Below, piece by piece: positions 1-14,615 of a stretch of DNA of 14,650 nucleotides (positions are counted from its first letter, which is position 1; every line of letters starts with the position of its first letter). This stretch comes from an uncultured Rhizobiaceae group bacterium. GTDB lineage: Bacteria; Pseudomonadota; Alphaproteobacteria; Rhizobiales; Rhizobiaceae. The notes beneath the pieces are model-generated. The model was given only the letters and a program-made list of their open reading frames with translations, had not been told where the DNA came from and did not search any database. The position numbers and the translations under genes are program-made. The stretch is from contig CALAIO010000373.1 of NCBI GenBank assembly GCA_937923355.1, positions 1-14,650 on the forward strand, read 5' to 3'.

Positions 1-23
1 GCGCTTGGAATTAGATTGGAACT

Positions 24-341
24 TTATTTTTGAACTGCGCCAGTATGTGTCACATCAATATTGGAAACGTTTTTCTCATGATTTTGCTGAGACGTAATAT
101 GCTTTAATCCGCTTGTGATTTTATGAGCCGCACTTGAAGCAATTGCCTTGCCGGTTAGGCAAGTCTCTTCATTTCGTTCGCAAAATGAAGTTATGTCTGC
201 ATAAAGTGAGTGCGCCGCACTAAAGGCTTCGTAAGTTGAAACTTGTGGTCGTACTTCCGCAGTATCAGAAACTGAACCAGTTACAGTTTCAGCTGGTAAT
301 AAAACACCCGCCACTCCAAGAGCTATGATTAGTCTAAACAT
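24..341 (-). CDS. DUF5330-like small exported protein
   Basis: This is a 105-residue protein of unknown function. Residues 1-17 form a hydrophobic N-terminus with an early Arg, consistent with a signal peptide or short membrane anchor, so the rest probably lies in the periplasm. The middle holds a pattern I associate with the Rhizobiales family DUF5330: an ITSFCERN segment followed by ETCLTGKA, giving two cysteines 8 residues apart that could form a disulfide. The C-terminal 40 residues are polar and look disordered. The ATG start is supported by a GGTGGG ribosome-binding sequence just upstream on the minus strand. It is transcribed divergently from the histidine kinase operon and shares the repeat-rich gap with it. 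The family assignment is from memory and moderately sure; the function is unknown. Confidence 0.72.
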   Translation of the reverse strand: MFRLIIALGVAGVLLPAETVTGSVSDTAEVRPQVSTYEAFSAAHSLYADITSFCERNEETCLTGKAIASSAAHKITSGLKHITSQQNHEKNVSNIDVTHTGAVQK

Positions 342-440
342 GTACCCACCTGTTTTTCATTCTGTGAGCATGTGTAACATGGAAGATTTAAGTCCCGTTT
401 TAGGACAGACAATGAATTTGACTCAAATTTTACAAACAGC

Positions 441-476
441 GTTTACCATAAGTTTTGTAAACACCTTGTTTACCAT
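441..476. promoter_or_regulatory. GTTTAC/GTAAAC element cluster in divergent gap
   Basis: The 245-bp gap at 342-586 holds two copies of GTTTACCAT in the same orientation (441-449 and 468-476), 27 bp apart. A GTAAAC at 457-462 forms a perfect inverted repeat with the GTTTAC at 468-473, with a 5-bp spacer. Such an arrangement suggests a regulator-binding region controlling the DUF5330-like gene, the kinase operon or both. TTTACCAT resembles the TTAACCAT half-site of the alphaproteobacterial cell-cycle regulator CtrA with one mismatch, but no full TTAA-N7-TTAA site is present, so naming the regulator would be speculation. The rest of the gap holds no gene I can support. Confidence 0.4.
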
Positions 477-586
477 GACATTAGAAACCCTTGCTTAAAA
501 GGCTTTATTAGAACGTTTCTTGCCATGAAATGCGCTTCATTAGGATTCCATTAAATACGTTGTGTAACCAATCTTGGTAACCATAA

Positions 587-1915: not shown

Positions 1916-1919
1916 TATT

Positions 1920-2708: not shown

Positions 2709-2755
2709 TTGGCGTTTAGATCTCAGTTAACTCAAGCAATAAGGCAACTCATCCC

Positions 2756-3097
2756 ATGCGTTTAACCAGTGCAATGTGGTTTGCTGTATTTATGAGAACT
2801 GAAAGCGCGCGCGGTGCTTATGTTTCTGTATTGAAATCTGGCGCGCAGCAGGCAGGTGCGCTTTTTATTATGCACAATCATCTGAACGGGTTGTTTGATT
2901 TATATGCACCTGCACCTCAAGCTTTGATGGATGAGCCAGATGGTGATGATCGTAAATTTGAACGCGTTCTTGAAAATGTGGGTCAACAAGAAATAGATGC
3001 TTACTTAGAAAAGCAAAAAAACTTTGATCCGGATCTATGGATTATCGAAACAGAATCAGGTTCTGGCGCAATCTCACTTTCTTTAGCAAAACATTAG
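2756..3097 (+). CDS. DUF1491 family protein
   Basis: This is a 113-residue soluble protein of unknown function that matches my memory of the alphaproteobacterial DUF1491 family. Recognisable stretches are RLTSAMWFAVFMR at the N-terminus, ARGAYVSVLKSGAQQAGALF in the middle, and a C-terminal FDPDLWIIETE segment. The length is about that of the family. It lies 47 bp behind the peptidoglycan-binding gene with no visible terminator, so it is probably the third gene of the kinase operon. An AAGG sequence upstream is a weak ribosome-binding site. Its stop lies 14 bp from the stop of the convergent DUF2336-like gene. Confidence 0.8.
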   Translation: MRLTSAMWFAVFMRTESARGAYVSVLKSGAQQAGALFIMHNHLNGLFDLYAPAPQALMDEPDGDDRKFERVLENVGQQEIDAYLEKQKNFDPDLWIIETESGSGAISLSLAKH

Positions 3098-3111
3098 AAG
3101 AGCTTTGTGAT

Positions 3112-4236
3112 TTAGGCCGTAAGTTTCATTTCCTGATGTTCTTCAGAATAAGCTTCTTGTTGTTTTGATAGCGCTGCACGTCTGGCCCTTGCTGCAAGCG
3201 ATAAAGCGTAGCGTGTAGTTGGTATATGTTTTGTTTCCTTAAAGTGTGAGTGACTGAAATCAGCACCCAGTTTCTCATAATATGTAACACACTGTGAGTA
3301 ATTCAGATTCTTATATTTATCCATCACCACTTTGAAGATTTGCGCATTACGCCCAATGTCCAAATTTGCCATAAGTAAAATTCTGGCGGCTGAAACATCA
3401 GAAACTTCCAAGGCGCAGAGAAGTGTTGCAAGCATACCTGCATTTTGGGTTCGAAGTATCTGGAAGGTTATTGGACTTCTCAATCCGCAAAAATGTTGTA
3501 TCGATATTGCAAAGCTCTTTAAATTTTTCTCTCTCATATTCGACAAGAGCTGGTTTTCCATCTGCGATAAAGTAATCATGCTATCAGTGGATTTAACGGG
3601 TTTGCCTGTAGGTTTACGTCTTAATTTTCCACCCTTGTTTGCCAAGGCTAACAAAGTTTCAGACAAATCTTTGGAACGTTTGCTTGTTTGAACAGGTGTT
3701 ATGTCCGCAGATTGAATATTTGTAATTTCCTGCTCTGCTTTATCCCAACCATCAGAAAGGTTTGAATTCTCCAAAATCTGTACAATTTCAGAGTTTTCCA
3801 AGATGGTTTCATTTGCCAATAATATTGATTTTACTTGTTCGGCAACATTATCCAATTTTAACAAGGCTTTTACATTGGTTGCATCAAGGTTTTCACGTCT
3901 TGCGATTACCTTCGCCTGTTCAATGGAGCTTTTTTCAATAATTAAGTTCAGATCAGCAGGTTGCAACACGGGCGAATAAAGAAGCGGTGATTGGGCAATT
4001 GCAATCTCTTGTGTAGCCATAAAAATGATGAGTGGTTTTGGTGTGTATGCGCTTTTGGAGATGTTTTGAGCAATCTTCTTACGTTCCACGCTATTCGTGC
4101 TTAAAATTAGCGTGTAAAATTGTTCTTGAAATAAAGTTATATCTTTTCTTGAAGGTCTGGATAGAGATGCAAAACCTTGTGACAAATCAACCAAGCTTGA
4201 TTGATTACGACTTGGTTTTAAATGATTTCTAGTCAT
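3112..4236 (-). CDS. DUF2336-like helical protein
   Basis: The protein is about 374 residues, soluble and almost entirely alpha-helical. Residues 15-200 carry repeated helical units with patterns such as IAQSPLLYSP and DLNLIIEKSSIEQAKVIARR, which I associate with DUF2336 proteins of alphaproteobacteria. That family resembles HEAT-type scaffold repeats and has no established enzymatic role. The C-terminal part (about 240-374) is basic and contains ARARRAAL near the end. I place the start at ATG 4236, preceded by the purine-rich GAAAAG. A longer reading from GTG at 4302 adds 22 residues, but its GGGAAG abuts the start codon, which is poor spacing. The gene converges with DUF1491 and diverges from the small gene at 4458. 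The family call is moderately sure; the function is unknown. Confidence 0.7.
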   Translation of the reverse strand: MTRNHLKPSRNQSSLVDLSQGFASLSRPSRKDITLFQEQFYTLILSTNSVERKKIAQNISKSAYTPKPLIIFMATQEIAIAQSPLLYSPVLQPADLNLIIEKSSIEQAKVIARRENLDATNVKALLKLDNVAEQVKSILLANETILENSEIVQILENSNLSDGWDKAEQEITNIQSADITPVQTSKRSKDLSETLLALANKGGKLRRKPTGKPVKSTDSMITLSQMENQLLSNMREKNLKSFAISIQHFCGLRSPITFQILRTQNAGMLATLLCALEVSDVSAARILLMANLDIGRNAQIFKVVMDKYKNLNYSQCVTYYEKLGADFSHSHFKETKHIPTTRYALSLAARARRAALSKQQEAYSEEHQEMKLTA

Positions 4237-4457
4237 TGTCTTTTCTTTTTCAAAAACTTTCAACAAGGCCCCATCCTCTTGAAGTGATTCGTATCTAATC
4301 ACCTTCCCATGGAAAATCTTTACAATCTGTTAACCATGTTTGGTTTGTACTGTACGTGCCGATTCATTCACTTGTCTTGATTTGGATATAAATCGCAAGC
4401 AGTCATCATCAGGTGGCTTGATAGCCGAAGCAACGATTTACTTTTTGGAGAAGTAGG

Positions 4458-4640
4458 ATGAGTAGCATTTTAAAATTCCCGTTAGAACGCGTACAGCGCA
4501 GATCATATGGAATGCCTGACATCAGCCATAATGCTGAAGTACTGGTTTTTGAAGGTGTACGATATGAAAAAAACAAGTCATCTAAAGTCAATCAATCGCA
4601 AAAGAAGGCTCTAGCGACCAAAGTTAAAATCAAACCTTAA
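4458..4640 (+). CDS. Small basic protein, unknown function
   Basis: This 60-residue protein starts at ATG 4458 with a well-placed GGAG at 4447-4450 (7-nt spacer), the main reason to believe it is real. The N-terminus MSSILKFPLERVQRR resembles the start of many short alphaproteobacterial hypothetical proteins. The C-terminal third is lysine-rich, with no membrane segment or cysteines, and could bind nucleic acid or an acidic partner. It is transcribed divergently from the DUF2336-like gene across a 221-bp gap that includes a TTAACCAT sequence near 4329, and it converges with the DUF1254 gene 23 bp away. I do not recognise its family. Confidence 0.62.
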   Translation: MSSILKFPLERVQRRSYGMPDISHNAEVLVFEGVRYEKNKSSKVNQSQKKALATKVKIKP

Positions 4641-4663
4641 TGATTTGTAGCCGTAAATATTTG

Positions 4664-5233
4664 TTACGAAGCTGGCGTAATGGCAATGTTTGTATTGTAC
4701 GGAATACATTCAGAGTTACGCAAAAAATCAACTGATTGCGTAGTCCAGCTAACATCCGGAACGAGCGCTCTGAGCAATACAAAGCCTCTTGTACTTTGAC
4801 TTTCAACCAGAATTGAAGACTCAACTTCTTCAGGCTGAGTTTGTCTGATATCTGCCATCTGGATAGGATTTACTATCACCATTCGCAGCTGGTTTTTGAT
4901 CGCTGTACGGTCGTTCATACTGTATATAACCTTACCACTTTCATCAAAAACCGATGCTGACCAAAAGTTTTTATTCTTTGGACCTTTAATCTCTACTGCA
5001 CTTTTTGTTAGGTCAAATTTACAGACTGACAATTTTAAAAACGGGTCGCTGTTTGTAATACCAACTCTTTTGCCATCGTTTATGTAATGGAATGAATCAT
5101 TACTGAAGGTACTGGCAATCTGTTTTGCAGCATCTTTTGAACCGAGCGAAGGTATCAAAAGAATGATAACGATATGGACTATTCCAGCAAGAATGAGACC
5201 GCATAGGGTTAGATATAAAAACCGGGATTTCAT
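4664..5233 (-). CDS. DUF1254-like membrane-anchored protein
   Basis: This is a 189-residue protein with one N-terminal membrane helix (about residues 7-30), followed by a beta-rich domain expected in the periplasm. The sequence around FWSASVFDESGKVIYSMNDR fits the short, stand-alone form of DUF1254 that in Rhizobiales sits directly next to a DUF1214 protein. Its ATG overlaps the stop of the upstream gene as ATGA (5230-5233), so the two should be translationally coupled and may form a complex. It is the last gene of the PBP-DUF1214-DUF1254 operon. No catalytic motif is evident and the function is unknown. Confidence 0.72.
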   Translation of the reverse strand: MKSRFLYLTLCGLILAGIVHIVIILLIPSLGSKDAAKQIASTFSNDSFHYINDGKRVGITNSDPFLKLSVCKFDLTKSAVEIKGPKNKNFWSASVFDESGKVIYSMNDRTAIKNQLRMVIVNPIQMADIRQTQPEEVESSILVESQSTRGFVLLRALVPDVSWTTQSVDFLRNSECIPYNTNIAITPAS

Positions 5234-5811
5234 TCTTCACAACCTAACAATTGTATCTTTGGCATTTGCGGATCAATCACGCCAGAATTACTTGTAATAG
5301 GAGTGTCATACAGCCTTAGCACAAGCTTGAAATCACCTTCACCAACAATCGGTAGCCAGTTACTTGATTTTGGTGATTGGCTTATTTTTACAACAAAAGA
5401 AGAGTCCGGGTAGCGAACAAGGTTTCTGGAAAAAACAGCTGAAACCAGAATGCTGTCTCTGATTATCAGTTCGCCTTTGCCATCATAGGCTGAGAGTGTC
5501 CATAGACGCGCAGATGAAGTTTCTCCGGCAACTTCATAACTACACTTTCTATTGAGCCGTTTGCCGTCTTGATCTGTAATCGCTTCAAATGCCAAGCCTT
5601 CAGCTGCACCAAGCGGTATCGTGCCATCAGCGGTGGCTTTTGCTGTTGTATATGGATCTACCTCTGCGCCTCCAACAAATGGCCATGCTGACCAAGGTCC
5701 CGTGTTAACCGCGCCAATGCCATGGGTTCTTTGCAAAGCAAAGTTTGCACTAAGCCCGCCTAATGCAAGTCCGATTAACAAGACTATGGCTACGTTGATA
5801 ATAGTGCGCAT
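5230..5811 (-). CDS. DUF1214-like membrane-anchored protein
   Basis: The protein has 193 residues with an N-terminal membrane helix or uncleaved signal (about residues 5-24). The remainder is a beta-rich domain typical of DUF1214: GPWSAWPFVGG and DPYTTAKATADGTIPLG near the N-terminus and YDTPI toward the end. Family members often pair with DUF1254, as here. The N-terminal TGPW...DPYTTA segment suggests the truncated membrane-bound form, not the large fused DUF1254/DUF1214 form. It lies 39 bp downstream of the penicillin-binding protein gene and overlaps the next gene by 4 bp, so it is the middle gene of a three-gene operon. No clear ribosome-binding site is visible. A role in the envelope is inferred from topology and neighbours only. 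Confidence 0.75.
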   Translation of the reverse strand: MRTIINVAIVLLIGLALGGLSANFALQRTHGIGAVNTGPWSAWPFVGGAEVDPYTTAKATADGTIPLGAAEGLAFEAITDQDGKRLNRKCSYEVAGETSSARLWTLSAYDGKGELIIRDSILVSAVFSRNLVRYPDSSFVVKISQSPKSSNWLPIVGEGDFKLVLRLYDTPITSNSGVIDPQMPKIQLLGCEE

Positions 5812-5850
5812 TATTTCAGGATTAACTTTTCAGACAGAAGAGGAAATGTG

Positions 5851-8040
5851 TCATTGCGTTACAACACCAGAGTTTTGTGAATTTGCAATCTCACCGTTTA
5901 ATTTAAGTGGCTTTGCATTTTGGAATATCTGCTCAATATTGCGTAGTGTTTCCTCTGATTTTTTCGACAAAAGCTTAGGTCTAAGCGGTTGCGCTTCAAT
6001 GGTTTTATCAGTTTCGACAACCTTTTGTTCAGGTTCTTCTGTTCTGCCTGGTAGTGGATTTTCGATAAATGGAATAGGCCGCAATTCAATATTTTGATGC
6101 GCGTAAGTCATAAATTTCTGCCATGTCATGGCTGGCAGTCTACCCCCTGTTAAGCGTCTTGTTGGTTGATAATTATCGTTACCAAACCAGACAGCAGATA
6201 CGTAATTACCTGTATAACCAACAAACCAGGCATCGCGATATGCTTGTGTTGTTCCGGTTTTACCAGCTGCTCTAATGCCGTTAAGTGCTGCACGTTTCGC
6301 TGTTCCCCATTCCGGGATTTGCGCCATCATTTTATTCATTGCGGCAACGGTTGTTTCCTTGAGGACCTGAGGTGGTTCTTGTACATCTTCACGAATATCA
6401 AAAAGAATATTGCCCGATGTATCCAAGATTTGTGTGAACCCATAACGGTTCAGTTTCTTGCCACCCGTCATGAAAGTACCATAGCCAGAAGCCATCTCCA
6501 GAACAGTAACGCCATTTGATCCAAGTACCATGGGCGGGTTCACCACCATTTCAGACTCGATGCCCATATCTCGCGATGTTTTAACAAGCCGGTCACCACC
6601 CAGTGCTTGCAAGCCATCACGGCCGAGATACATTTTTACGGGTACTGTATTTATAGATTTAACGAGCGCTGTTGTCATATCCATGCGACCGCGGAAGTTT
6701 GGTGTATAATTGCGCGGACACCAGTTTTTACCAAATCGAACAACGCAAACACGACCGTCTACTACTCTGGTTTTTTCTGTATAATCAAAATTATCTATGG
6801 CAGAAGCATATACATAGGGCTTGAAAGATGAGCCTGGCTGACGCTTTGCAAGTGTTGCGCGGTTGAATTGACTTTGACCGTAATCACGACCACCAACCAT
6901 TGAACGCACAGCACCTTCATGATCAATCACGACCATGGCTGCATCTCTCACATTATACTGAGAGCCAAACTGTCTTAAATGGGATTCAACGGAATCTTCC
7001 GAAGCTTTTTGTAGATCTAGATCAACAGTCGTTTTAACAATCAGATTACGCGTTTTGAATTTAACAGCGGTTTTGCGGACTTCATCATAAGCCCAATCCA
7101 GAAAATAGTTAGGCCCTTTGAGATCTTCACGGGGTACAACGCTTGCTGGTTCGCGTCTTGCTCTGACGACTTGACCTTCTGTCATAAAACCTGCCTGAAC
7201 CATATTGGTCAAAACTTCATTGGCGCGGGCTCTCGCTGCTGGCAGGTTGATGTGCGGTGCATATTTGCCAGGTGCTTTGTAAAGTCCTGCAAGCATAGCA
7301 GCTTCGGCCAAAGTCACGTCTTTGATGTTTTTGTCAAAATAATATTGAGCCGCCGCCGCAATCCCGAAGTTGCCTCCGCCCATGTAGGCGCGGTCAATAT
7401 AAAGTTTGAGGATTTCTTTTTTCGACAGATTTGTCTCAAGCCATAGTGATAGAAACGCTTCCTTGATTTTTCTGTCTAGGGTTCGCTCATTTGTCAAAAA
7501 CAGATTCTTGGCTAGCTGCTGTGTAATGGTACTGCCACCTTGAACGACAGAATTGGCACGAACATTTTCAGCCATAGCGCGTACGAGGCCTAAAAAGTCT
7601 ATGCCAATATGCTCAAAGAAACGTCTGTCTTCTGTTGAGAGAACCGCCTTGATAAAATGATCGGGAAGAGCGTCTAGTTCTTCTGCTGCATTTTGGCGAA
7701 TACCGCGGCGACCAATTTCCTTGCCATTTCTGTCTAAAAACAGAACGGAATAATCATCCTGACTGCGCCAGTCTTTTTGGGTTTCTTCAAACGCAGGTAG
7801 TGCAAGGGCCAACATGGCAATAGAGCCAATCAATCCAAGTGTTATGCCTTCATCAAAAATCTCTACAAAGAAACGTTTTAATCCTTTGACGCGAAACTTT
7901 CTAAAGAAAATAGTGATATTTTCCCAGCGTTCACCAGCGTCTGAAAACATGCGATAGAGTGAAGAATCAATCCAGGAATCGATATCGAGGAGCTTATTCC
8001 AGCCCCCACCTTTCTTCGAATTCTTAAACGGATCACGCAA
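5851..8040 (-). CDS. Class A penicillin-binding protein (PBP1A family)
   Basis: This is a 729-residue bifunctional peptidoglycan synthase that polymerises glycan strands from lipid II and cross-links their peptides in the periplasm. A 65-residue cytoplasmic N-terminus precedes one membrane helix (about 66-84). The GT51 glycosyltransferase domain shows EDRRFFEH (catalytic Glu137), QGGSTITQQLAKNLFL (167-182), a RKIKE motif (second Glu194) and KLYIDRAYMGGGNFGI. The transpeptidase domain shows the SxxK motif in PGSSFKP (Ser404, Lys407), SIN at 462-464 and KTG at 594-596. All key residues are present, so it should be active. The C-terminal tail of about 70 residues is charged and Pro/Glu-rich. The start is TTG 8040, supported by an upstream AAGG; the next in-frame Met is residue 31. 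It heads the operon with DUF1214 and DUF1254. It could be annotated mrcA/ponA-like, but which paralogue is not certain. Confidence 0.93.
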   Translation of the reverse strand: MRDPFKNSKKGGGWNKLLDIDSWIDSSLYRMFSDAGERWENITIFFRKFRVKGLKRFFVEIFDEGITLGLIGSIAMLALALPAFEETQKDWRSQDDYSVLFLDRNGKEIGRRGIRQNAAEELDALPDHFIKAVLSTEDRRFFEHIGIDFLGLVRAMAENVRANSVVQGGSTITQQLAKNLFLTNERTLDRKIKEAFLSLWLETNLSKKEILKLYIDRAYMGGGNFGIAAAAQYYFDKNIKDVTLAEAAMLAGLYKAPGKYAPHINLPAARARANEVLTNMVQAGFMTEGQVVRARREPASVVPREDLKGPNYFLDWAYDEVRKTAVKFKTRNLIVKTTVDLDLQKASEDSVESHLRQFGSQYNVRDAAMVVIDHEGAVRSMVGGRDYGQSQFNRATLAKRQPGSSFKPYVYASAIDNFDYTEKTRVVDGRVCVVRFGKNWCPRNYTPNFRGRMDMTTALVKSINTVPVKMYLGRDGLQALGGDRLVKTSRDMGIESEMVVNPPMVLGSNGVTVLEMASGYGTFMTGGKKLNRYGFTQILDTSGNILFDIREDVQEPPQVLKETTVAAMNKMMAQIPEWGTAKRAALNGIRAAGKTGTTQAYRDAWFVGYTGNYVSAVWFGNDNYQPTRRLTGGRLPAMTWQKFMTYAHQNIELRPIPFIENPLPGRTEEPEQKVVETDKTIEAQPLRPKLLSKKSEETLRNIEQIFQNAKPLKLNGEIANSQNSGVVTQ

Positions 8041-8174
8041 TTTAAAACTACCTTATGTAAACTCTGAATGATTTATACAGCATATAAAGTCGTTTTTGAA
8101 TGAAAATTATAGTGATTGCGTATAGTTTATTGAGTTCTGGTAAACGCAACTAACAGTCAAGTTGGAATTAAATT
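8041..8174. promoter_or_regulatory. Divergent promoter region, PBP / YcgN
   Basis: This 134-bp gap separates two divergent genes and must hold both promoters. On the minus strand a perfect TATAAT -10 hexamer reads from 8111 to 8106, about 65 bp before the PBP start, but no good -35 sits 16-18 bp upstream. On the plus strand TATAGT near 8119-8124 is a weak -10 candidate. The sequence TGGTAAACGC around 8140 is the complement of the GCGTTTACCA found at 440-449 in the kinase gap, so the same regulator could act at both places; a 10-bp match could also be chance. Confidence 0.35.
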
Positions 8175-8633
8175 ATGGCAAACGAGCCTTTTTGGAAAAC
8201 AAAGTCTCTTGAAGAGATGTCACAACAGGAGTGGGAATCTCTGTGTGATGGATGTGGCAAGTGCTGTTTAAACAAACTTGAAGACTGGGATACTGCAGAG
8301 ATTTACTGGACAAACATAGGGTGTGAACTGCTGGACTGTGAAAGCTGCCGATGTAAAGACTATGACAATAGGTTTGAACTTGTTCCTGATTGTATTCAAC
8401 TGACACCAGAAACAGTAAGAAGCTTAAGATGGCTACCTCCCACATGCGCTTATCGCTTAGTACGTGACGGTGAAGATCTTTTCGATTGGCACCCTTTGAT
8501 CTCTGGTGATCCAAAAACAGTTCATGAAGCGGGAGTGAGCATTAAAGGCAGGGCTATTCCTGATGACGGAAAGCCGGCAGAAGAATATGAAGATAACCTG
8601 GTTGATTGGCCTCGCGAGATTTATATTCCTTAA
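8175..8633 (+). CDS. YcgN family cysteine-cluster protein
   Basis: This is a 152-residue soluble protein of the YcgN/YkgJ (UPF0260) type. The N-terminal CDGCGKCC motif (about residues 24-31) together with the later [11 protein letters not shown] and PDC/PTCAY cysteines forms the conserved cysteine cluster of this family, which is thought to bind metal (zinc or an iron-sulfur cluster). Other family marks are [12 protein letters not shown] and the C-terminal DWPREIY. The length is normal for the family. The biochemical function is not established. The ATG at 8175 has only a weak upstream purine stretch. It diverges from the PBP operon, and its stop codon overlaps the stop of the convergent small gene. 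Confidence 0.9.
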
Positions 8634-8815
8634 GCTGTTTTGTTAGGCTTAGTCTTTTTTATTTCATCTTTTGCCAAAGGCCCTGGCAATCCACTAGAGC
8701 CATGCACACCAATTGAGTTATCATTTTCATCAAGTGCCAACGATTCGTTCTTGATGTTAGGAAGATGCTGCGTGTCTATTAAGCTTTCGCCTTTGCCTGC
8801 AATTGGTTTTGCCAC
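8630..8815 (-). CDS. Small hydrophilic protein, unknown function
   Basis: This 61-residue protein begins at GTG 8815, preceded on the minus strand by GGGAGAA with a 7-nt spacer from GGGAG (8823-8827), a near-ideal ribosome-binding site. The product is hydrophilic and probably disordered: a [12 protein letters not shown] start, an acidic middle with DENDN, a Gly/Pro-rich SSGLPGPLA stretch and a lysine-rich end. Codon use resembles that of neighbouring genes (GAT, GAA, AAA preferred). Its stop overlaps the YcgN stop, so the genes are convergent with no room for a terminator. Its 5' end overlaps the proposed 5' end of the metallopeptidase-like gene on the other strand by 44 bp. I do not recognise the family. 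Confidence 0.55.
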
Positions 8816-9374
8816 TGAACTTCTCCCAACTAGAGATGGTTTTGAATTTACACTTACAACGCTTCTATCAACACTGTTGAACGATGCAGAGCAAATGTTT
8901 GGCCCACGTGATATGTCCTATACGCCCGTGGGAATCGAGTTTTACGGAGATAGACCACAAGTCTGGTATCCCGGTATTAACAAGCATATCTCAATAATCT
9001 TAACAGATAGTGCGCGTGAAGACCCTGCTCAGGCAATTTTTCAATTGGCCCATGAAGTGACGCATCTATTATCACCAACAGGCGGCGCTAATGCTCCGGT
9101 GGTTGAAGAGGGGTTGAGTGCCTTGTTTCAACAACGCGCAAATGAAATCTATGGATTAAATCTTATTTTGGTTTCCCAGCCATATATAAACGCAACAGAA
9201 CTGACAAATATGCTGCTAAAAGGTCAGCCAAATATAATAAAGGCTTTGAGAAAAACTGAGCCTGCCTTTCATAAATGGACACCACGATTCTTAGTTTCAG
9301 AAGCAGGAATATCCCGTGATTTAGCAGAAAAACTTTGTGAGCCATTTATCGATTTTGAAAGTCGAATAAAATAA
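8772..9374 (+). CDS. HExxH metallopeptidase-like protein
   Basis: This is a protein of about 200 residues with the zinc-protease signature HEVTH at residues 94-98, followed about 14-15 residues later by EEGLSALF (Glu112/113), the arrangement expected for a gluzincin active site with two His ligands and a downstream Glu. A helix around 24-42 and a beta-rich segment before the HExxH complete a minimal catalytic core. There is no signal peptide from this start. I chose GTG 8772 because AGGAAG (8759-8764) lies 7 nt upstream. An open frame extends to a TTG at 8640, but that part is antisense to the small gene and reads poorly as protein; ATG 8895 would be a short alternative. Substrates are unknown. 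It is the last cellular gene before the GTA cluster, and any link to that cluster is untested. Confidence 0.65.
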   Translation: MSIKLSPLPAIGFATELLPTRDGFEFTLTTLLSTLLNDAEQMFGPRDMSYTPVGIEFYGDRPQVWYPGINKHISIILTDSAREDPAQAIFQLAHEVTHLLSPTGGANAPVVEEGLSALFQQRANEIYGLNLILVSQPYINATELTNMLLKGQPNIIKALRKTEPAFHKWTPRFLVSEAGISRDLAEKLCEPFIDFESRIK

Positions 9375-9394
9375 TTTAAAAATAATAGGAATTT

Positions 9395-9435
9395 ATTCTT
9401 TACACCGAAACGGTCTTGGGGTACATTCTTTATAC
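9395..9435 (+). repeat. Imperfect 11-bp direct repeat upstream of GTA cluster
   Basis: ATTCTTTACAC (9395-9405) and ATTCTTTATAC (9425-9435) match at 10 of 11 positions and start exactly 30 bp apart, about three helical turns. Each is followed by a CGGTC (9411-9415 and 9435-9439), though at different distances. Two same-face copies ahead of a capsid gene cluster suggest an activator or repressor binding site, but no known GTA regulator site is recognised here. Confidence 0.35.
9399..9427 (+). promoter_or_regulatory. Possible sigma70-type promoter of GTA cluster
   Basis: TTTACA (9399-9404) and TACATT (9422-9427) are separated by 17 bp and match the -35 and -10 consensus at 5 and 4 of 6 positions. 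Transcription would begin near 9434, giving a leader of about 120 nt before g1. It overlaps the direct repeat, so a factor bound there could control it. The match is weak and the region is AT-rich, so chance is a real alternative. Confidence 0.25.
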
Positions 9436-9451: not shown

Positions 9452-9490
9452 ATGAAGCGCTCAGTATCGTCTTTATTCAATAAAACTTGA
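9452..9490 (+). CDS. Possible 12-residue leader peptide
   Basis: ATG 9452 opens a 12-codon frame (MKRSVSSLFNKT) ending with TGA, with GGAG at 9440-9443 and an 8-nt spacer. It lies in the leader before g1. AAGCGC at 9455-9460 can pair with GCGCTT at 9498-9503, so translation could affect folding of the leader. A short frame with a ribosome-binding site is common by chance, so this is a weak call. Confidence 0.22.
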   Translation: MKRSVSSLFNKT

Positions 9491-9555
9491 AAATTTTGCG
9501 CTTTCCTCTGGAGGGGTGTTTTCGTTTGTTCAATTCAAATTGCTAGGAATATTTT

Positions 9556-9855
9556 TTGACTGATGACCGCAGTGACTTGGAGGATATTACGTTCAAGCTT
9601 CGTGATAAAATAATTGATGAGCTTGCGAGTCTTGATACGGCAAATAACAGTGAAGATGTTTCAGACGAACAGCGTTTAAAATCATACTTGGGTTTCTTCA
9701 AACTATTGCAATGTCTTGAAGAAATGATGAAACGGGTGCAACAGGAACGTGAAAAAAAATCCGACCGGGGAGTGGATATACTGGAATTCCGTCGACAGCT
9801 TGAAGAACAGATTACCAAGCTTGTCGACATCAAAAATGAGGCAAGTCTTTCTTGA
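9556..9855 (+). CDS. GTA g1: candidate small terminase subunit
   Basis: This is a 99-residue hydrophilic, helical protein, rich in Glu, Lys and Arg, with coiled-coil character over most of its length (for example LEEMMKRVQQEREKK and FRRQLEEQITKLV). It lies directly before the large terminase, the position of g1 in the Rhodobacter capsulatus GTA cluster, whose product acts as small terminase, a ring-forming partner that presents DNA to the packaging motor. Sequence similarity between such proteins is low, so position and shape carry the call. The start is TTG 9556, supported by AGGA at 9545-9548 with a 7-nt spacer; an in-frame TAG at 9544 excludes anything longer. It overlaps the large terminase by 20 bp, implying coupled translation. 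No helix-turn-helix of a cos/pac-recognising subunit is obvious, which would suit the unspecific packaging of a GTA. Confidence 0.68.
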   Translation: MTDDRSDLEDITFKLRDKIIDELASLDTANNSEDVSDEQRLKSYLGFFKLLQCLEEMMKRVQQEREKKSDRGVDILEFRRQLEEQITKLVDIKNEASLS

Positions 9856-11113
9856 AGACTTGGATGATAATGCGCTTGAGATTTTAAAAAACGATTGGCC
9901 TTTATGGGCGCGATTAAAACAAAGGCCGCCGATCAGTAATTGGAGAACCTGGTTGATGCTAGGTGGACGTGGAGCTGGCAAGACGCGAACGGGAGCTGAA
10001 TGGTTAAAAGGTGTTGCCCTAGCTGATCCGCATTTTCCAGGGAGTAGTGGTGGAAGAGTAGCGCTTGTGGGCGCAAGCTTTGATGATATGCGTGATGTGA
10101 TGGTGGAAGGGGAATCTGGATTATTGGCAATCCACAAAAAATCCGATCGCCCGCAATGGATATCATCCAGAAAAGAATTGATTTGGGAAAATGGTACGAT
10201 TGGAAAACTCTTTTCATCGGCCAGCCCGGAAGGATTGCGCGGTAATCAATTTGGCGCCGTGTGGGCTGACGAGATTTGTAAATGGCAAAATCTGCAACTT
10301 ACATGGGACATGCTTCAATTTTGTCTAAGATTAGGAAACAACCCCAGACAAGTTGTAACAACAACACCAAAACCGTTGAAACTCTTAAAACAGATCATCA
10401 AGGATCCAACAACCATAATAGTGCGTTCTACAACATCTGAAAATGCCAATAATTTGGCGAATGGCTTCTTGGAATATGTCGAGGGTATTTATTCAGGAAC
10501 ACGTCTTGGCCGTCAGGAACTGGATGGAGAAATTATTGAGCATAACGAATTTGCCTTATGGAGCAGGGAGAGAATTGAAGCTTCAAGACTTGATAAAATA
10601 CCTGATTTGAAGCGCATCGTGATTGCGGTTGATCCGCCTGCAAGTTCAGGAGCCAAGTCAGCAGCTTGTGGTATCATCGCTGTCGGCAAAACGACTGATG
10701 GTCGTTGCTGCGTTCTTGAAGACAGAACGTTGGCAAAAGCAACACCTAATCAATGGGCGGCAGAAGCCGTTGCGCTTTATCATAAGCTTGGAGCTGATCT
10801 GATTTTGGCAGAGGTTAATCAAGGTGGTGATATGGTGAAAACGGTAATTCATACCATTGATCCATCCGTGCCAGTCAGGTCCGTCCATGCAAGCCGTGGC
10901 AAATGGATAAGGGCCGAGCCGGTAGCGCTGCTCTATGAGCGCAACATGGTTTCACATGCTGGTAGATTTGCAGAATTGGAAGATCAAATGTGCGCCTTCA
11001 CACCAGATGGAATGGCAGAAGGGGTCTCTCCAGATAGAGTGGATGCGTTGGTTTGGGCTGTTACAGAACTGGCGCTTTCCAGACGTGCCGAACCACGCGT
11101 TAGGCGAGCATAA
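9836..11113 (+). CDS. GTA g2: large terminase, ATPase and nuclease
   Basis: This is a 425-residue DNA-packaging motor that docks on the portal, pumps DNA into the prohead and cuts it. The ATPase domain has Walker A GGRGAGKT (43-50), Walker B with AVWADE (141-146) and a coupling segment VVTTTPKP (173-180). The RNase H-like nuclease domain shows IAVDPP (Asp266), LAEVNQGGD (Glu326) and SPDRVDALVWA (Asp400, Asp403), so both activities look intact. The sequence NWRTWLMLGGRGAGKTRTGAEW is that of GTA-type terminases. I prefer ATG 9836, inside the 3' end of g1, because the upstream in-frame GTG at 9749 adds 29 residues that are only a shadow of g1 and precede the conserved part. There is no clear ribosome-binding site, consistent with coupling to g1. 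The stop is 25 bp before the portal start. Confidence 0.92.
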   Translation: MRQVFLEDLDDNALEILKNDWPLWARLKQRPPISNWRTWLMLGGRGAGKTRTGAEWLKGVALADPHFPGSSGGRVALVGASFDDMRDVMVEGESGLLAIHKKSDRPQWISSRKELIWENGTIGKLFSSASPEGLRGNQFGAVWADEICKWQNLQLTWDMLQFCLRLGNNPRQVVTTTPKPLKLLKQIIKDPTTIIVRSTTSENANNLANGFLEYVEGIYSGTRLGRQELDGEIIEHNEFALWSRERIEASRLDKIPDLKRIVIAVDPPASSGAKSAACGIIAVGKTTDGRCCVLEDRTLAKATPNQWAAEAVALYHKLGADLILAEVNQGGDMVKTVIHTIDPSVPVRSVHASRGKWIRAEPVALLYERNMVSHAGRFAELEDQMCAFTPDGMAEGVSPDRVDALVWAVTELALSRRAEPRVRRA

Positions 11114-11138
11114 ATTTAAAATAAATACGGGATTGAAA

Positions 11139-12311
11139 ATGAACCGATTTTTTAATTGGCTGAAACCATCAGTCAAAACAGATGGTCTTTTGGAAGAGAA
11201 ACATTCAACAGGCTCTTTAATAGCATTCCATTCGGCAGGCAATGCTATTTGGTCAAGCTTGGGAGAAGGAGGTCAGGCAAACCAGGCGTTTACCAAAAAT
11301 CCGGTGGTCTATCGCTGTGTCAGAATGATCAGTGAAGCTACAAGCTCAATGCCCTTCGCTGTACTCGAAAACAGGGTTGAATTGAACGAACATCCATTGC
11401 TTGATCTCCTGGCAAAACCAAATGCACGACAATCGGGTCCAAACTTCATGGAATGTCTCTACGGGCATTTGTTGATTTCCGGTAATGTGTACCTGACAAA
11501 AATTGAAGTTGCCGACACATTAAGAGAAATCCATATTTTGGACCCTTCCAAGGTGCAGCCAATTTTGGATGAAAAAGGTTGGCCAAAAGCATATGAATTT
11601 AGAACTGGTGCTATGTCGGTGCATTACAATCTGGATGAAATTCTGCATCTGGCTTTGTTTAATCCTTCTGATGATATCAACGGTCTTTCGCCACTGGCTT
11701 CTGCTAATATGGCGCTTGATATTCATAATGCTGCAAGCAGTTGGAACAAGGCACTCCTTGATAATTCAGCCCGTCCGTCAGGCGCATTGGTTTATGCGTC
11801 GAGTGCGGGTGAGAATTTAACTGATGATCAGTTTAATCGTTTAAAAAGTGAACTTGAAGAGGGTTATACGGGTTCAACCAAAGCAGGGCGTCCAATGGTG
11901 CTTGAGGGTGGGCTTGATTGGAAAGCGATGGGCTACAGCCCGCGTGATATGGATTTTCTACAGGCAAAAAATGGTGCTGCCCGCGAAATTGCCTTGGCGT
12001 TTGGTGTTCCGCCCATGTTGCTTGGCATACCAGGCGATAACACTTATTCGAATTATCAGGAAGCAAACCGCGCATTTTGGAGACAAACGGTTTTACCCCT
12101 GGCTCATAAAACCGCCTGCGATATTGGAAATTGGTTAGCTCATGAGTTCGATGAAAAAATATCATTGGTGCCGAATTTGGAAACGGTTGATGCGTTTTCT
12201 TCTGACCGCGAAGGGTTGTGGACACGACTTGGGCAGGCAGATTTTCTGACTGATAATGAAAAGCGTGAGGCCTTGGGTTATTTGCCTCTTGAAAATGAAA
12301 ACGCTGTGTAA
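11139..12311 (+). CDS. GTA g3: HK97-family portal protein
   Basis: The protein has 390 residues, close to the length of the R. capsulatus GTA portal. Portal proteins form a dodecameric ring at one capsid vertex, through which DNA passes and onto which the terminase and neck assemble. Family marks include NPVVYRCVRMISEATSSMP near residues 52-70, HPLLDLLAKPNA, GHLLISGNVYL, the GLSPLASA segment, and ALAFGVPPMLLGIPGDNTYSNYQEA in the C-terminal half. ATG 11139 is preceded by the weak ribosome-binding site CGGGA. The open frame extends upstream to 10935, but that extension runs out of frame inside the terminase gene and is not supported. The stop codon is directly followed by the start of the next gene, so the two are probably co-translated. 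Confidence 0.92.
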   Translation: MNRFFNWLKPSVKTDGLLEEKHSTGSLIAFHSAGNAIWSSLGEGGQANQAFTKNPVVYRCVRMISEATSSMPFAVLENRVELNEHPLLDLLAKPNARQSGPNFMECLYGHLLISGNVYLTKIEVADTLREIHILDPSKVQPILDEKGWPKAYEFRTGAMSVHYNLDEILHLALFNPSDDINGLSPLASANMALDIHNAASSWNKALLDNSARPSGALVYASSAGENLTDDQFNRLKSELEEGYTGSTKAGRPMVLEGGLDWKAMGYSPRDMDFLQAKNGAAREIALAFGVPPMLLGIPGDNTYSNYQEANRAFWRQTVLPLAHKTACDIGNWLAHEFDEKISLVPNLETVDAFSSDREGLWTRLGQADFLTDNEKREALGYLPLENENAV

Positions 12312-12650
12312 ATGTCCAGCCCAACGTTTAACTATATTAGCGAAATTCCCGAGCATGTTTGGGTGTTCGCTGCAAAAACTGTCGGGGCGATATGCGGGTC
12401 AGCAATTTCAATTGCTTACCTCTTGCCAAAAGACAGACGGGAAGCATTTTTGAGATTTTTTATCGGGACAAGCATCGGCATGATATTTGGCACTTCAGCT
12501 GGCATTAAACTGGCTGATTATCTGGATATTACGCACAGAATTTCAGCGATAGAAATTGCACTTTCCGGTGCAGCACTCGCCAGTCTTTGTGCTTGGTGGG
12601 GTTTGGGAATTTTATCGCGTCTTTCGGCACGACTGGGTTCTGCAAAGTAA
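12312..12650 (+). CDS. GTA g3.5: small three-helix membrane protein (DUF6107-like)
   Basis: This 112-residue protein starts immediately after the portal stop with no gap. It has three predicted membrane helices, around residues 17-40, 47-67 and 78-103, separated by short charged loops (PKDRRE, DITHR) and ending in a basic tail. In Rhizobiales GTA-like clusters a small membrane protein of this kind (I recall DUF6107) sits between portal and protease, at the place of orf3.5 in R. capsulatus. Its job is unknown. The topology recalls a holin, but GTA lysis genes normally lie elsewhere and nothing in the sequence proves pore formation. Confidence 0.75.
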   Translation: MSSPTFNYISEIPEHVWVFAAKTVGAICGSAISIAYLLPKDRREAFLRFFIGTSIGMIFGTSAGIKLADYLDITHRISAIEIALSGAALASLCAWWGLGILSRLSARLGSAK

Positions 12651-12671
12651 TTTTTAAAAATGGAGAATAAC

Positions 12672-13352
12672 ATGAAACAACGAGGGCTCCTGGCTCAGCG
12701 TGAAACCAAATTTGCGCCTGTTAATGTTCAAGATATCAAACTTGATGGCCGTTTTTCAGGTTATGCAAGCGTCTTTGGTGCGGTTGATCAAGGCAATGAC
12801 ATGGTAGCACAAGGGGCATTTTTCACCTCTTTAAAAAACCGTAAGCCAAGTGATGTGCGCATGTTGTTTCAACATGACCCTGATCAACCTATTGGATGTT
12901 GGAATAAAATCGTTGAAGACGAAAAAGGCCTTTATGTGGAAGGTAAAATCACGCGCGGTGTCAGGCGGAGCGAAGAAGTTCTGGAGCTGATGCGCGAAGG
13001 TGCACTGGATGGACTTTCAATTGGTTTTAAAACCAAACGGGCGCGGGTTAATCCAACCACAAAAATACGAACAATATTGGCTGCAGATTTATGGGAGATT
13101 TCAGTCGTAACATTTCCACTGCTCGAAGAAGCACGGATTGAAACGGTTAAATCTGCACAACATAAGAAGCTGCCAACTTCAAGAGAATTCGAGCGATGGC
13201 TAACGCGGGATGCGGGGCTGTCGAGGCGTGAAGCAAAAATGATTATCTCAAATGGCTTCAACGCACTCCATGGTCAGCGGGATGCGACGGTGGATCACCC
13301 TCTTGCGGATAAAATTCGCAAGGCAACTAAAATCATGTCTCAAAGGATATAG
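12672..13352 (+). CDS. GTA g4: HK97-family prohead protease
   Basis: This 226-residue maturation protease of the S78/HK97 type cleaves the capsid scaffold region (and itself) after prohead assembly. The N-terminal FSGYASVFGAVDQGND is the typical first strand block. Likely catalytic residues are His68 in MLFQHD and Ser116 in DGLSIGF, with Glu142 in LWEISVVTFP as the probable third member. The C-terminal part (about 170-196) has REFERWLTRDAGLSRREAK, a segment I associate with GTA proteases, where it replaces the scaffold tail of some phage enzymes. ATG 12672 is chosen over ATG 12660 because GGAG (12662-12665) sits 6 nt before it. The stop is 3 bp before the capsid start. Confidence 0.92.
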   Translation: MKQRGLLAQRETKFAPVNVQDIKLDGRFSGYASVFGAVDQGNDMVAQGAFFTSLKNRKPSDVRMLFQHDPDQPIGCWNKIVEDEKGLYVEGKITRGVRRSEEVLELMREGALDGLSIGFKTKRARVNPTTKIRTILAADLWEISVVTFPLLEEARIETVKSAQHKKLPTSREFERWLTRDAGLSRREAKMIISNGFNALHGQRDATVDHPLADKIRKATKIMSQRI

Positions 13353-13355
13353 TAA

Positions 13356-14615
13356 ATGAAACGACAGGAAATTCGTGCGCCTGAAGCAAAAGCTGCAACG
13401 GGGCAAGCACAAGATGTTGCAGAATGTTTTGATGAGTTTATGGAAGCATTTGAAGCTTTCAAGGAAACCAATGATGAACGTCTTGCACAAGTTGAAACGC
13501 AGGTTTCAGAAGATGTTGTAACGGTTGAAAAAATGAACCGCATCAACAAGGCTCTGGATGAACAAAAATCACTGATGGATAATCTTTTGCTTAAAGGTAA
13601 GCGTCCATCATTTGGTGGTTCTGCGGTAAATTCAATTGCTGGTATTGAACATAAACAAGCGTTCAATGATTACATTCGTGGTGGTCGTGAAGAGGGTCTT
13701 CGCCGTCATGAACAAAAAGCATTGTCTTATGGTTCCGACGCGGATGGTGGTTATCTTGTACCTGATGAAACTGCAACTGAAATTGGTCGCCGTCTGGCTC
13801 TTGGCTCACCTATTCGTTCTATTTCTGGTGTGCAGCTTGTATCATCTGCTGTTTACAAAAAACCGTTTGCAGTAACGGGCCCGGCAACAGGTTGGGCGTC
13901 TGAAACAGAACTTCGTACAGAAACGGCTTCGCCAACTTTATCAGAGCTACAGTTCCCGACGATGGAGCTATACGCAATGCCGGCTGCTACTTCGCAGCTG
14001 CTGGATGATGCGGCAGTTGACATTGATGCCTGGATTGCCAGCGAAGTGGAACAGGCTTTTGCTGAACAGGAAAGTGCTGCCTTCATAAATGGCGATGGTG
14101 TGAACAAGCCAAAAGGTTTTCTGACCCACTCAACCGTGGATGAAAGCAATTGGTCCTGGGGCAATCTTGGTACAATTTCAACTGGCAGCGACGGTGCGTT
14201 TGCAGACGAAGATGCGTCTGACACGCTTGTGGATACGATCTATTCATTAAAAGCAGGCCACCGTCAAAATGCAAATTGGGTCATGAACCGCAAAACGCAA
14301 GCTGAAGTCCGAAAGCTCAAGGATGCTGATGGCAACTATCTATGGCAGGCACCTGCAGCTGCAGGACAGGCCGCAAGTCTGATGGGCTTTGGCGTAGTTG
14401 AAGCTGAGGACATGCCTGATATGGCCTCCAACAGTCTTTCAATTGCCTTTGGTGATTTCAATCGTGGCTATTTGATTGTTGACCGGGCAGGTGTTCGCGT
14501 ATTGCGTGATCCTTATTCAGCCAAGCCATATGTCTTGTTCTATACAACCAAACGCGTTGGCGGTGGTGTTCAGGATTTTGATGCAATCAAGCTTGTAAAA
14601 TTCGGTACAAACTAA
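13356..14615 (+). CDS. GTA g5: HK97-family major capsid protein
   Basis: This 419-residue protein is predicted to form the GTA head. Residues 1 to about 100 are acidic and helical with coiled-coil character, the scaffolding delta domain removed by the g4 protease. Cleavage probably falls near residues 105-125, just before the ALSYGSDADGGYLVPDE segment that begins the mature fold. The mature part shows the HK97 core: GWASETELRTETASPTLSELQFPT (E-loop and spine region), EQESAAFINGDGVNKPKGFLT, NWVMNRKT and a C-terminal segment around FGDFNRGYLIVDRAGVRVLRDPYS. No Lys-Asn crosslink is assumed. AAAGGATATAGTAA just before ATG 13356 supplies the ribosome-binding site within the g4 end. The gene is complete and ends 35 bp before the window edge. 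Confidence 0.94.
   Translation: MKRQEIRAPEAKAATGQAQDVAECFDEFMEAFEAFKETNDERLAQVETQVSEDVVTVEKMNRINKALDEQKSLMDNLLLKGKRPSFGGSAVNSIAGIEHKQAFNDYIRGGREEGLRRHEQKALSYGSDADGGYLVPDETATEIGRRLALGSPIRSISGVQLVSSAVYKKPFAVTGPATGWASETELRTETASPTLSELQFPTMELYAMPAATSQLLDDAAVDIDAWIASEVEQAFAEQESAAFINGDGVNKPKGFLTHSTVDESNWSWGNLGTISTGSDGAFADEDASDTLVDTIYSLKAGHRQNANWVMNRKTQAEVRKLKDADGNYLWQAPAAAGQAASLMGFGVVEAEDMPDMASNSLSIAFGDFNRGYLIVDRAGVRVLRDPYSAKPYVLFYTTKRVGGGVQDFDAIKLVKFGTN

Follow-up and report, generated by a model that had tools for sequence, protein, structure and literature searches.

Gene transfer agents (GTAs) of Alphaproteobacteria include the type II element BaGTA of Bartonella, which has a linked run-off replication origin. 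The better known type I element is the RcGTA of Rhodobacter capsulatus (rcc01682-01698), and RcGTA-like clusters were predicted in 155 of 300 Rhizobiales OTUs, about half; in the part of that survey cited here, their GTA nature awaits experimental validation (PMC6821227). The formal viriform family Rhodogtaviriformidae is so far, according to the cited section of its description, limited to the Rhodobacterales (PMC9662315). In Caulobacter, mutation of a palindrome located in the -35/-10 spacer of the gtaT promoter brought GafZ enrichment to background, as the cited passage reports (PMC11150451). Known GTA small terminases (TerS) all lack an N-terminal DNA-binding domain in the relevant passage of a 2024 review, and this absence as a GTA trait is put forward as a hypothesis in the cited part of PMC6854486.

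The window, i.e. the whole stretch of 14,650 nucleotides analysed here, very probably carries one half, the packaging and head genes, of an RcGTA-like GTA that resides in the chromosome, is inherited vertically and would work as proposed below. Elements of this type have been described from the order before; the interpretation given by the sequence-only reading is supported. The following features were located:

24..341, minus strand: DUF5330 protein (PF17264), counterpart at L169:4714-5034 with sufE, gafZ and gafY beyond
5851..8040, minus strand: penicillin-binding protein (PBP; transglycosylase plus transpeptidase, PF00912 and PF00905), conserved on the left side of the GTA cluster
8175..8633, plus strand: YcgN family cysteine-cluster protein, an ordinary cell gene (NCBIfam NF003501, 245 bits, cut-off 167)
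8754..9374, plus strand: lineage-restricted protein with an HExxH...EEG motif (zincin-like), outside the known GTA set (alignment of 24 sequences and model)
9386..9398, plus strand: TAGGAATTTATTC box, candidate GafY (DnaA-like) site abutting the -35 element, sole match of TAGGAAWWWATYC in the window
9399..9427, plus strand: predicted g1 promoter, TTTACA at 9399-9404, spacer of 17, TACATT at 9422-9427 (footprint with L001 and L004)
9404..9414, plus strand: palindrome ACCGAAACGGT between -35 and -10, candidate GafZ operator
9489..9523, plus strand: weak hairpin followed by a T-rich stretch within the 5' leader, which may be a terminator (score 7.8; L001 9.6, L004 14.7)
9556..9855, plus strand: g1, small terminase (TerS) without N-terminal HTH, 99 aa; TTG start, the same in the L001 ORF, in-frame stop at 9544
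9836..11113, plus strand: g2, large terminase (TerL; PF03237 115 bits, PF17289 56 bits; also placed by tree); ORF opens at 9749, start uncertain
11139..12311, plus strand: g3, HK97-type portal (PF04860 293 bits; top PDB match the RcGTA portal Rcc01684, E 3e-104)
12312..12650, plus strand: small membrane-type protein of the g3-g4 interval (PF19602 DUF6107, 115 bits; in 69 of 80 loci)
12660..13352, plus strand: g4, prohead protease S78 (PF04586, TIGR01543)
13356..14615, plus strand: g5, HK97-fold major capsid protein (TIGR01554 401 bits; top PDB match the RcGTA capsid Rcc01687, E 2e-96)

The block at 9556-14615 consists of g1 to g5 with the DUF6107 protein between g3 and g4, all on a single strand and tightly spaced (ORF and family searches). 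The earlier observation of a GTA head module of six close-packed plus-strand genes in g1-g5 order is thus confirmed, with corrections to two starts: g3 begins at about 11139 and not at 10935, and g2 probably near 9836 rather than 9749. TerL (Terminase_6N/6C), HK97 portal, DUF6107 protein, S78 protease and HK97 capsid all scored above the curated cut-offs, TerL and DUF6107 by Pfam only; a search of TerL against the PDB returned no match at E 0.001. Protein g1 falls outside any Pfam, NCBIfam or PHROG family of its own, and is recognized by a g1 profile from related clusters that was built without it (E ~1e-6). By reading of the sequence, TerL carries a Walker A (GGRGAGKT), a Walker B (VWADE) and the nuclease motifs DP and DRVDALV, while the prohead protease carries LFQH and GLSIGF; these are the motifs that had been read as catalytic. 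All six ORFs of the block are open and their motifs intact.

The right end of the window lies 35 bases past g5, and g6-g15 of this genome lie beyond it. The closest relative, locus L001 (capsid 95% identical, gene order identical), has g6-g15 downstream of the head genes, where the sequence-only reading had suggested to look for them, followed by housekeeping genes. Its tail region matched NF048004 GTA_megatron (1593 bits, cut-off 800), PF11836 GTA-gp10 and TIGR02217/02218/02219. The tape measure has just 198 aa and reaches 168 bits with NF058675 (RcGTA tape measure), below the cut-off of 220. The closest solved structures are the RcGTA capsid, portal and distal tail protein. In the survey of 80 loci of relatives, g2-g15 were all matched in 59, many loci being cut by contig ends. 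The cluster resembles RcGTA in the HK97 capsid and, with the tail as seen in L001, in the g1-g15 order, the GTA TIM-barrel g15 and the short tape measure; the RcGTA gene order used for this comparison draws in part on passages of PMC6854486 and PMC6821227.

The host neighbours of the cluster recur across genera, as judged from the 80 loci and from MW462191. Of the 80 loci, 70 extend as far as g2. A tblastn match to the PBP gene was obtained in 61 of the 80, in each case (61/61) upstream of g2 and on the strand opposite to it. The YcgN gene occurs in 22 of 80 loci, 22/22 upstream of g2 and on the same strand. Both are ordinary cellular genes upstream of the block as had been claimed; they are not immediate neighbours, since the gene at 8754-9374 lies between YcgN and g1. 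On the right flank, L001 and MW462191 both possess two-component, ccm and HtrA/DegP-type genes.

A gafA-type activator was also to be sought elsewhere. DUF6456 (gafZ) was detected in 59 of 60 relatives' genomes, among them that of L001; these whole-genome searches covered the genomes of 60 of the 80 loci, the Brucella loci being among the 20 left out. In the L001 genome, sufE and then gafZ/gafY follow leftward of the DUF5330 gene, which places the gafY-gafZ pair just past the counterpart of the window's left end and ~10 kb upstream of g1. By this comparison gafYZ is expected just left of the window in its own genome, and we infer that tail genes and gafYZ are both present there.

The g1 promoter element was found in 62 of 68 g1-upstream regions, on the plus strand every time and across several families of the order; the count comprises 67 of the 80 loci plus the window, the remainder having no g2 match or too short a sequence upstream of g2. 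In the window, TAGGAAWWWATYC has one match against 0.01 expected. The assignment of these sites to GafY and GafZ has one competitor, namely that an ordinary conserved sigma-70 promoter, or the site of another regulator (e.g. MucR, IHF), accounts for the element, which we consider possible though rather unlikely. The GafY/GafZ sites are predictions, and the consensus was derived from the very loci on which it was later tested. Moreover, a looser operator pattern is present elsewhere in many genomes and was rejected as GTA-specific, and only 9/24 IMG/VR regions and 1/19 regions of loci L198-L216 reach at least 12/15, so that the promoter sequence is not common to all RcGTA-like clusters. On the other hand, the palindrome occupies the interval between -35 and -10, where one is also located in the gtaT promoter of Caulobacter (cited passage of PMC11150451), the same kind of box abutting the promoter recurs before gafYZ in close relatives, and all 14 strict TTGACACCGTNACGGT sites detected in 48 genomes (14/14, positions compared by hand) are located between gafZ and g15. 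In the open-access literature searched, no report of a Hyphomicrobiales GTA promoter motif or of a gafA-cluster linkage was found.

Candidate terminators in the leader were enriched but not general. A score of at least 10 was reached by 18/62 leaders versus 14/186 shuffles and 3/62 antisense sequences, a score of at least 6 by 28/62 leaders versus 29/186 shuffles and 18/62 antisense sequences. A universal leader terminator was hence discarded; the window's own candidate is weak.

Head genes alone do not prove function, because broken clusters exist in relatives (G009, G027), and the window could in principle be a decaying GTA remnant in which head genes persist while the tail or the activator is dead. 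In G009, an IS21-like istA/istB takes the place of gafZ, and an IS3-like transposase interrupts g15 (IS names assigned by eye); G060, G054, G051 and G026 each have g15 in several pieces on a single contig; the G027 capsid contains an in-frame TAG; and the window's own tail genes and gafYZ lie outside of it. Nonetheless, we regard decay as highly improbable. The six window ORFs are open with intact motifs, the promoter element is kept (however, the broken G009 keeps its promoter, too), and g5 and PBP have equally low dN/dS values. Compared with L001, dN/dS was 0.025 for g5, 0.039 for g2, 0.068 for g3, 0.087 for g4, 0.23 for g1 and 0.025 for PBP, with saturation at synonymous sites in YcgN and DUF6107 when compared with L001, and in 5/9 genes when compared with L004. 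As judged from these substitution ratios, the window's cluster is under purifying selection, in agreement with the earlier reading of the intact motifs.

The least probable reading of all is that the block belongs to a temperate prophage, intact or recent, of an HK97/RcGTA-like siphovirus. Its head genes do have homologues in phages (their PHROG matches are ordinary phage head families) and IMG/VR carries many such clusters as viral contigs, but the L001 contig stretches read showed no gene for an integrase, a phage repressor or replication, the flanks of the L001 cluster had no att-like repeat, the cluster keeps the same host neighbours from genus to genus, and in the trees the TerL and capsid of the window stand apart from the phages that were included. 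The 47.9-kb contig of L001 was read by eye at 1-9000, 8005-29261 and 27000-46000, and ten right-flank proteins by family. Between its flanks (1.5 kb left versus 3 kb right) the longest shared word was 11 bases, shuffles giving a mean of 11.0 and a maximum of 15. ORF and family searches of the window itself likewise revealed none of these three gene types, and the block sits among host genes, as had been proposed. In both the TerL and the capsid tree, the window, L001 and L004 group together within the set of Hyphomicrobiales GTAs, which bears out the earlier assignments to GTAs and to a Rhizobiales-like genome. This set is supported by 100/99 for the capsid, and by 88/94 for TerL when one alphaproteobacterial TerL (L210) is included. 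The capsid placement is firm; in the TerL tree the deep forks are weakly supported and several alphaproteobacterial TerLs fall among phages. Two GenBank 'phages', MW091529 and MW462191, were considered as instances of the cluster in viruses and rejected, as their tree positions (and for MW462191 also the flanking genes) fit chromosomal GTAs.

In the trees, the GTA of the window falls among clusters of named Hyphomicrobiales genera, the RcGTA-like clusters described in the cited part of Kogay 2019 (PMC6821227). It differs from them in lacking the N-terminal part of g1, present in 43/53, and in the additional zincin-like gene between YcgN and g1. From RcGTA it differs in its activator, which is split into gafY (DnaA-like) and gafZ (DUF6456) and physically linked to the cluster in relatives, in its host, a low-GC Hyphomicrobiales-type bacterium, and in its capsid, that of RcGTA forming a long separate branch. 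Both share a TerS of ~100 aa without N-terminal DNA-binding domain and a DUF6456-type activator outside the cluster. 'Rhodobacter-type GTA', the wording of the sequence-only reading, is apt as a statement of homology, but not as a formal family, which is restricted to Rhodobacterales in the cited section of PMC9662315; the closest relatives of the window are Hyphomicrobiales. With the CcGTA of Caulobacter, as far as the cited passages of PMC11150451 describe it, the cluster shares the two proteins GafY/GafZ (here seen in relatives), a palindrome placed between the -35 and -10 elements of its first promoter and possibly a control by terminators. The CcGTA palindrome is a different one (GCGCCCG-CTGGCGC), and its terminator follows the first gene, whereas the candidates here lie in the 5' leader of a minority of loci (PMC11150451). 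BaGTA occurs in the same bacterial order and has a short TerS of 107-109 aa (cited part of PMC6854486); its TerL and capsid are clearly distinguishable from type I in the section cited of PMC9662315, and it is set apart here by that description.

The predicted N-terminal DNA-binding domain was assigned by rule to 43 of the 53 recovered g1 proteins, all 43 from relatives (counts for 53 of 71). The window's g1 has no such domain and aligns to positions 71-147 of 162 in the g1 family profile; judging from this alignment, its lineage has lost the TerS N-terminal domain, as RcGTA has. A fold search with the g1 of L065 gave mostly HTH DNA-binding proteins as top matches with a best E of 0.46, and is hence supportive but not significant. 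No report of an HTH-bearing GTA TerS was found in the open-access literature searched.

For the cluster as a whole, the following course is proposed. The host would activate gafY-gafZ. In the g1 promoter (9386-9427), GafY would then bind to the TAGGAAWWWATTC box, and the palindrome ACCG(T)NACGGT of the spacer would be the site of GafZ. RNA polymerase would read g1-g15 as a single unit, and GafZ may help it past terminators in the leader or further inside by processive anti-termination. Proteins g4 and g5 would form a small HK97-fold head with the portal g3, and TerS (g1) and TerL (g2) would package host DNA into it in headful fashion; a packaging signal would be dispensable because the TerS of the window's lineage lost its DNA-binding domain. 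A siphovirus-like tail with short tape measure would be supplied by g6-g15, and lysis would free the particles. Protein-DNA contacts, anti-termination, non-specific packaging, lysis and particle release are what we infer from these genes and sites.

On a broader proposal we are evenly divided. Loss of the TerS DNA-binding domain may not be what made RcGTA-like elements GTAs: many Hyphomicrobiales clusters retain a TerS with HTH, perhaps along with some preference for a packaging site, and the loss would have come later and more than once (window lineage, Rhodobacterales). The clusters would have a single dedicated GafYZ switch in common, with a palindromic operator in the g1 promoter and a matching box at gafYZ; the gafYZ pair, on the strand of the cluster and 19-27 kb upstream of g15, would belong to one conserved regulatory island. 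The conserved on-switch and the shortened TerS make two questions about GTAs testable. The strict operator and the linked activator suggest a way to turn a Rhizobiales GTA on and to recognize its regulon, and since nature offers clusters that have the TerS DNA-binding domain alongside others that lack it, the question of why GTAs package DNA at random becomes directly testable.

The zincin-like protein between YcgN and g1 is encoded in an ORF of 8640-9374 with a probable start at 8754. No Pfam, NCBIfam or PHROG family matched it, a PDB sequence search gave only E > 0.3, and a fold search returned no match at E 0.001 (best 0.05), its weak matches including zincins such as abylysin. Its homologue set comprises 38 proteins, the window's own included, and within the 80 loci the gene is present in two, L001 and L004.

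An ORF scan of the window found six ORFs where the sequence-only reading had placed the head module of a gene transfer agent (GTA), and profile searches bore out the proposed gene order, with a 99-aa ORF lacking a family match followed by TerL, an HK97 portal, DUF6107, an S78 protease and an HK97 capsid. The nearest solved structures for the capsid and the portal are the RcGTA capsid (E 2e-96) and portal (E 3e-104). The GTA assignment is correct and ordinary in kind; passages of PMC6821227 and PMC9662315 already report RcGTA-like clusters in Hyphomicrobiales. Its regulatory architecture and the comparison of its small terminase (TerS) raise this cluster above the ordinary. The features concerned are:

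3112-4302, minus strand: weak DUF2336/SpbR-like protein, both matches under the curated cut-offs
5851-8040, minus strand: PBP, a cell gene
8175-8633, plus strand: YcgN, a cell gene
8754-9374: lineage-restricted protein with an HExxH...EEG motif, between YcgN and g1
9386-9427: predicted g1 promoter region
9556-14615: g1-g5, with g1 (TerS), g2 (TerL) and g5 (capsid)

The locus beyond the window was read in relatives, using the best 80 of 211 loci from a scan of species genomes. The closest, L001 from another member of the uncultured Rhizobiaceae group (genome G001), encodes a capsid 95% identical to that of the window and aligns over 10.8 kb with 76% DNA identity. The tail genes g6-g15, which the sequence-only reading proposed to seek downstream, form a complete set 3' of its g5:

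downstream of g5: head-tail connector, head closure, gp17-like completion and TP901-type tail tube proteins
GTA-gp10 (PF11836)
tape measure, 198 aa
distal tail, hub and NlpC proteins (TIGR02217-02219)
g15, 1266 aa (NCBIfam GTA_megatron, 1593 bits)

All of g2-g15 were matched in 59 of the best 80 of 211 loci; contig ends truncate many of the 80. To the right of g15, L001 encodes a response regulator and histidine kinase pair, a glycine-zipper protein, CcmH/CycH, CcmE, CcmF and CcmH proteins, a hydrolase-OsmC protein and a trypsin-PDZ (DegP-type) protease. Two GenBank 'Bacteriophage sp.' records, L174 (MW091529.1) and L175 (MW462191.1), resemble chromosomal GTA clusters; in MW462191 the cluster stands between PBP and PhoP-like, ccm and HtrA genes. 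A Hyphomicrobiales-type GTA locus also stands in L050 (JAHREI010000009.1), a record titled Bacillus subtilis SK6B4, whose title or assembly is probably wrong.

Selection to keep the genes, which had been suggested from intact motifs, agrees with low dN/dS values between the window and L001 (Nei-Gojobori), with g5 at 0.025, equal to PBP (0.025), followed by g2 (0.039), g3 (0.068), g4 (0.087), the 8754-9374 protein (0.11) and g1 (0.23); these values are rough because dS mostly exceeds 1, and YcgN and DUF6107 were saturated. In phylogenies built from 49 TerL and 29 capsid rows, the window groups with L001 and L004 among Hyphomicrobiales GTAs, a set supported by 100/99 for the capsid and, plus L210, by 88/94 for TerL. 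The RcGTA capsid clusters with the GTAs (92/72) and has a long branch. The deeper forks of the TerL tree are weak, and several alphaproteobacterial TerLs fall among phages. GTA decay does occur in the group and is visible when it occurs, since in G009 (L016; L217:3656-7139, L218) an IS21-like istA/istB replaces gafZ between gafY and sufE and an IS3-like transposase splits g15 (both IS named by eye), with the promoter element retained. The capsid gene at G027:C59:9890-11128 (behind L027) has one in-frame TAG, which may mean that this cluster is decaying as well, or may be a sequencing error.

Left of the window's first gene, L001 carries sufE, gafZ (DUF6456, PF20057), gafY (DnaA C-terminal HTH, PF08299) and mucR, the arrangement that a passage of PMC9638019 describes around gafA in Hyphomicrobiales; gafY and gafZ form a split GafA-type activator pair. 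The gafZ stop lies ~10 kb upstream of g1 in L001, and by alignment that of the window should lie ~0.45 kb left of base 1. The gafA-like activator that the sequence-only reading proposed to seek was present beside the L001 locus and, as DUF6456, in 59/60 relatives' genomes searched, a set biased towards the window's nearest kin. Placed relative to g15, the capsid or the g1 promoter, DUF6456 is upstream on the same contig and strand in 45/60 genomes and on a separate contig in two (G053 and G030, despite 18 and 42 kb of sequence 5' of the capsid); an early contig end masks its position in 12, and G009 lacks it. The distance to g15 is 19.3-27.1 kb (39 genomes). In an order-wide sample, 82/121 genomes held both DUF6456 and the GTA-gp10 family: upstream, same strand and within 41 kb in 33, on one contig in another arrangement or at greater distance in 10, and on different contigs in 39. 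The part of PMC9638019 that describes the mucR-sufE neighbourhood of gafA gives no linkage of gafA to the GTA cluster.

A block 5' of g1 is common to the window, L001 and L004 and conserved far better than the leader after it. It reads ATAGGAATTTATTC, then TT(G/T)ACA-17-TACATT, then TACG(G/A)TCGGAGAAGTGCGG, and the palindrome ACCGAAACGGT shares its first base with the end of the -35. Across 68 regions 5' of g1 (from the window, which scores 13, and from 67 of the best 80 of 211 loci), the best match to TTGACACCGTNACGGT reached at least 12/15 positions in 62, always on the plus strand (62/62), a count that is descriptive because the consensus was first derived from the same loci; 14/1360 shuffled regions reached 12, none higher, and coding controls 0/70. 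Position, strand and co-occurring boxes are stronger evidence than the match count. Elsewhere the element is rarer, with scores of at least 12 in 9/24 IMG/VR regions and 1/19 regions from class-drawn genomes (L198-L216); scores stopped at 9-11 in three real phages and were 12 and 13 in two records mislabelled as 'phage'. Strict TTGACACCGTNACGGT occurred 14 times in 14 of 48 genomes, each between gafZ and g15 (coordinates compared by hand), and was absent from the other 34; a looser form was also found elsewhere.

The adjoining box ATAGGAATWTATTC occurred seven times in three close genomes (reversed control 0), six at gafYZ or the g1 promoter and the seventh on G001 C175 (L225, ~8669), where a small ORF of 86 aa and one resembling a glycosyltransferase follow it. 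This third copy of the box (ATAGGAATATATTC) in the closest relative's genome may mark a further GafY regulon member, or be chance. A looser box gave 26 sites in 14 of 25 genomes and none in 11 (reversed control 1), with 17/26 at gafYZ or the g1 promoter (by hand) and 9 elsewhere or undecided. GafY bears a DnaA-like HTH. A conserved TTATCCCC (TTTTCCCC in L169), which we take to resemble a DnaA box, lies ~50-100 bases before gafY in L169, L171, L172 and L173. According to a passage of PMC9638019, R. capsulatus GafA uses its C-terminal part to bind the RcGTA promoter at its -35/-10 region. Together with the observations above, this leads us to propose 9386-9427 as a candidate GafYZ-responsive promoter. 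Terminator-like leader hairpins scoring at least 10 are enriched, not general (18/62 leaders vs 14/186 shuffles and 3/62 antisense); L004 scores 14.7, L001 9.6 and the window 7.8. The 8754-9374 protein was modelled with mean pLDDT 84 and gave weak, zincin-like fold matches only; the 38 such proteins found are all named no further than 'hypothetical'.

TerS g1 was recovered in 53/71 loci, window included. By profile, its N-terminal part is covered by rule in 43/53 (L031 by a non-significant match) and ambiguous in 3/53, and the match begins only at position 40 or later in 7/53 (window, L001, L004, L003, L006, L067 and L005). At L005:5700-6290 g1 is apparently frameshifted, the profile halves matching in different frames with the N-terminal part still there. 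The window's g1 cannot extend further 5', since a stop at 9544 closes its frame. The AlphaFold2 model of the L065 g1 has three N-terminal helices (block mean pLDDT 85-97) and then long helices, with a pTM of only 0.38; its N-terminal segment matches PHROG small-terminase families (E 8e-4 and 5e-3) and Terminase_5 (0.0074, below cut-off), and a fold search gave mostly HTH DNA-binding proteins, none significant. Among eight long g1 scanned by family search, that of L035 weakly matched an Xre-type HTH (0.034, below cut-off) and the other six had no HTH-type match, so that family support for a putative HTH is thin. In loci of other origin, an ORF 5' of g2 reaches the g1 N-terminal part in 7/25 (L174, L175, L197, L199, L201, L202 and L207), 3/25 match the later part only and 15/25 lack a convincing match. 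Passages of PMC6854486 propose that absence of the N-terminal DNA-binding domain defines GTA-type TerS (92-125 aa), and a passage of PMC11841831 describes the putative TerS of known GTAs as all without it. The 99-aa g1 of the window agrees with the GTA-type TerS as described there, whereas 43 of the 53 recovered g1 do not.
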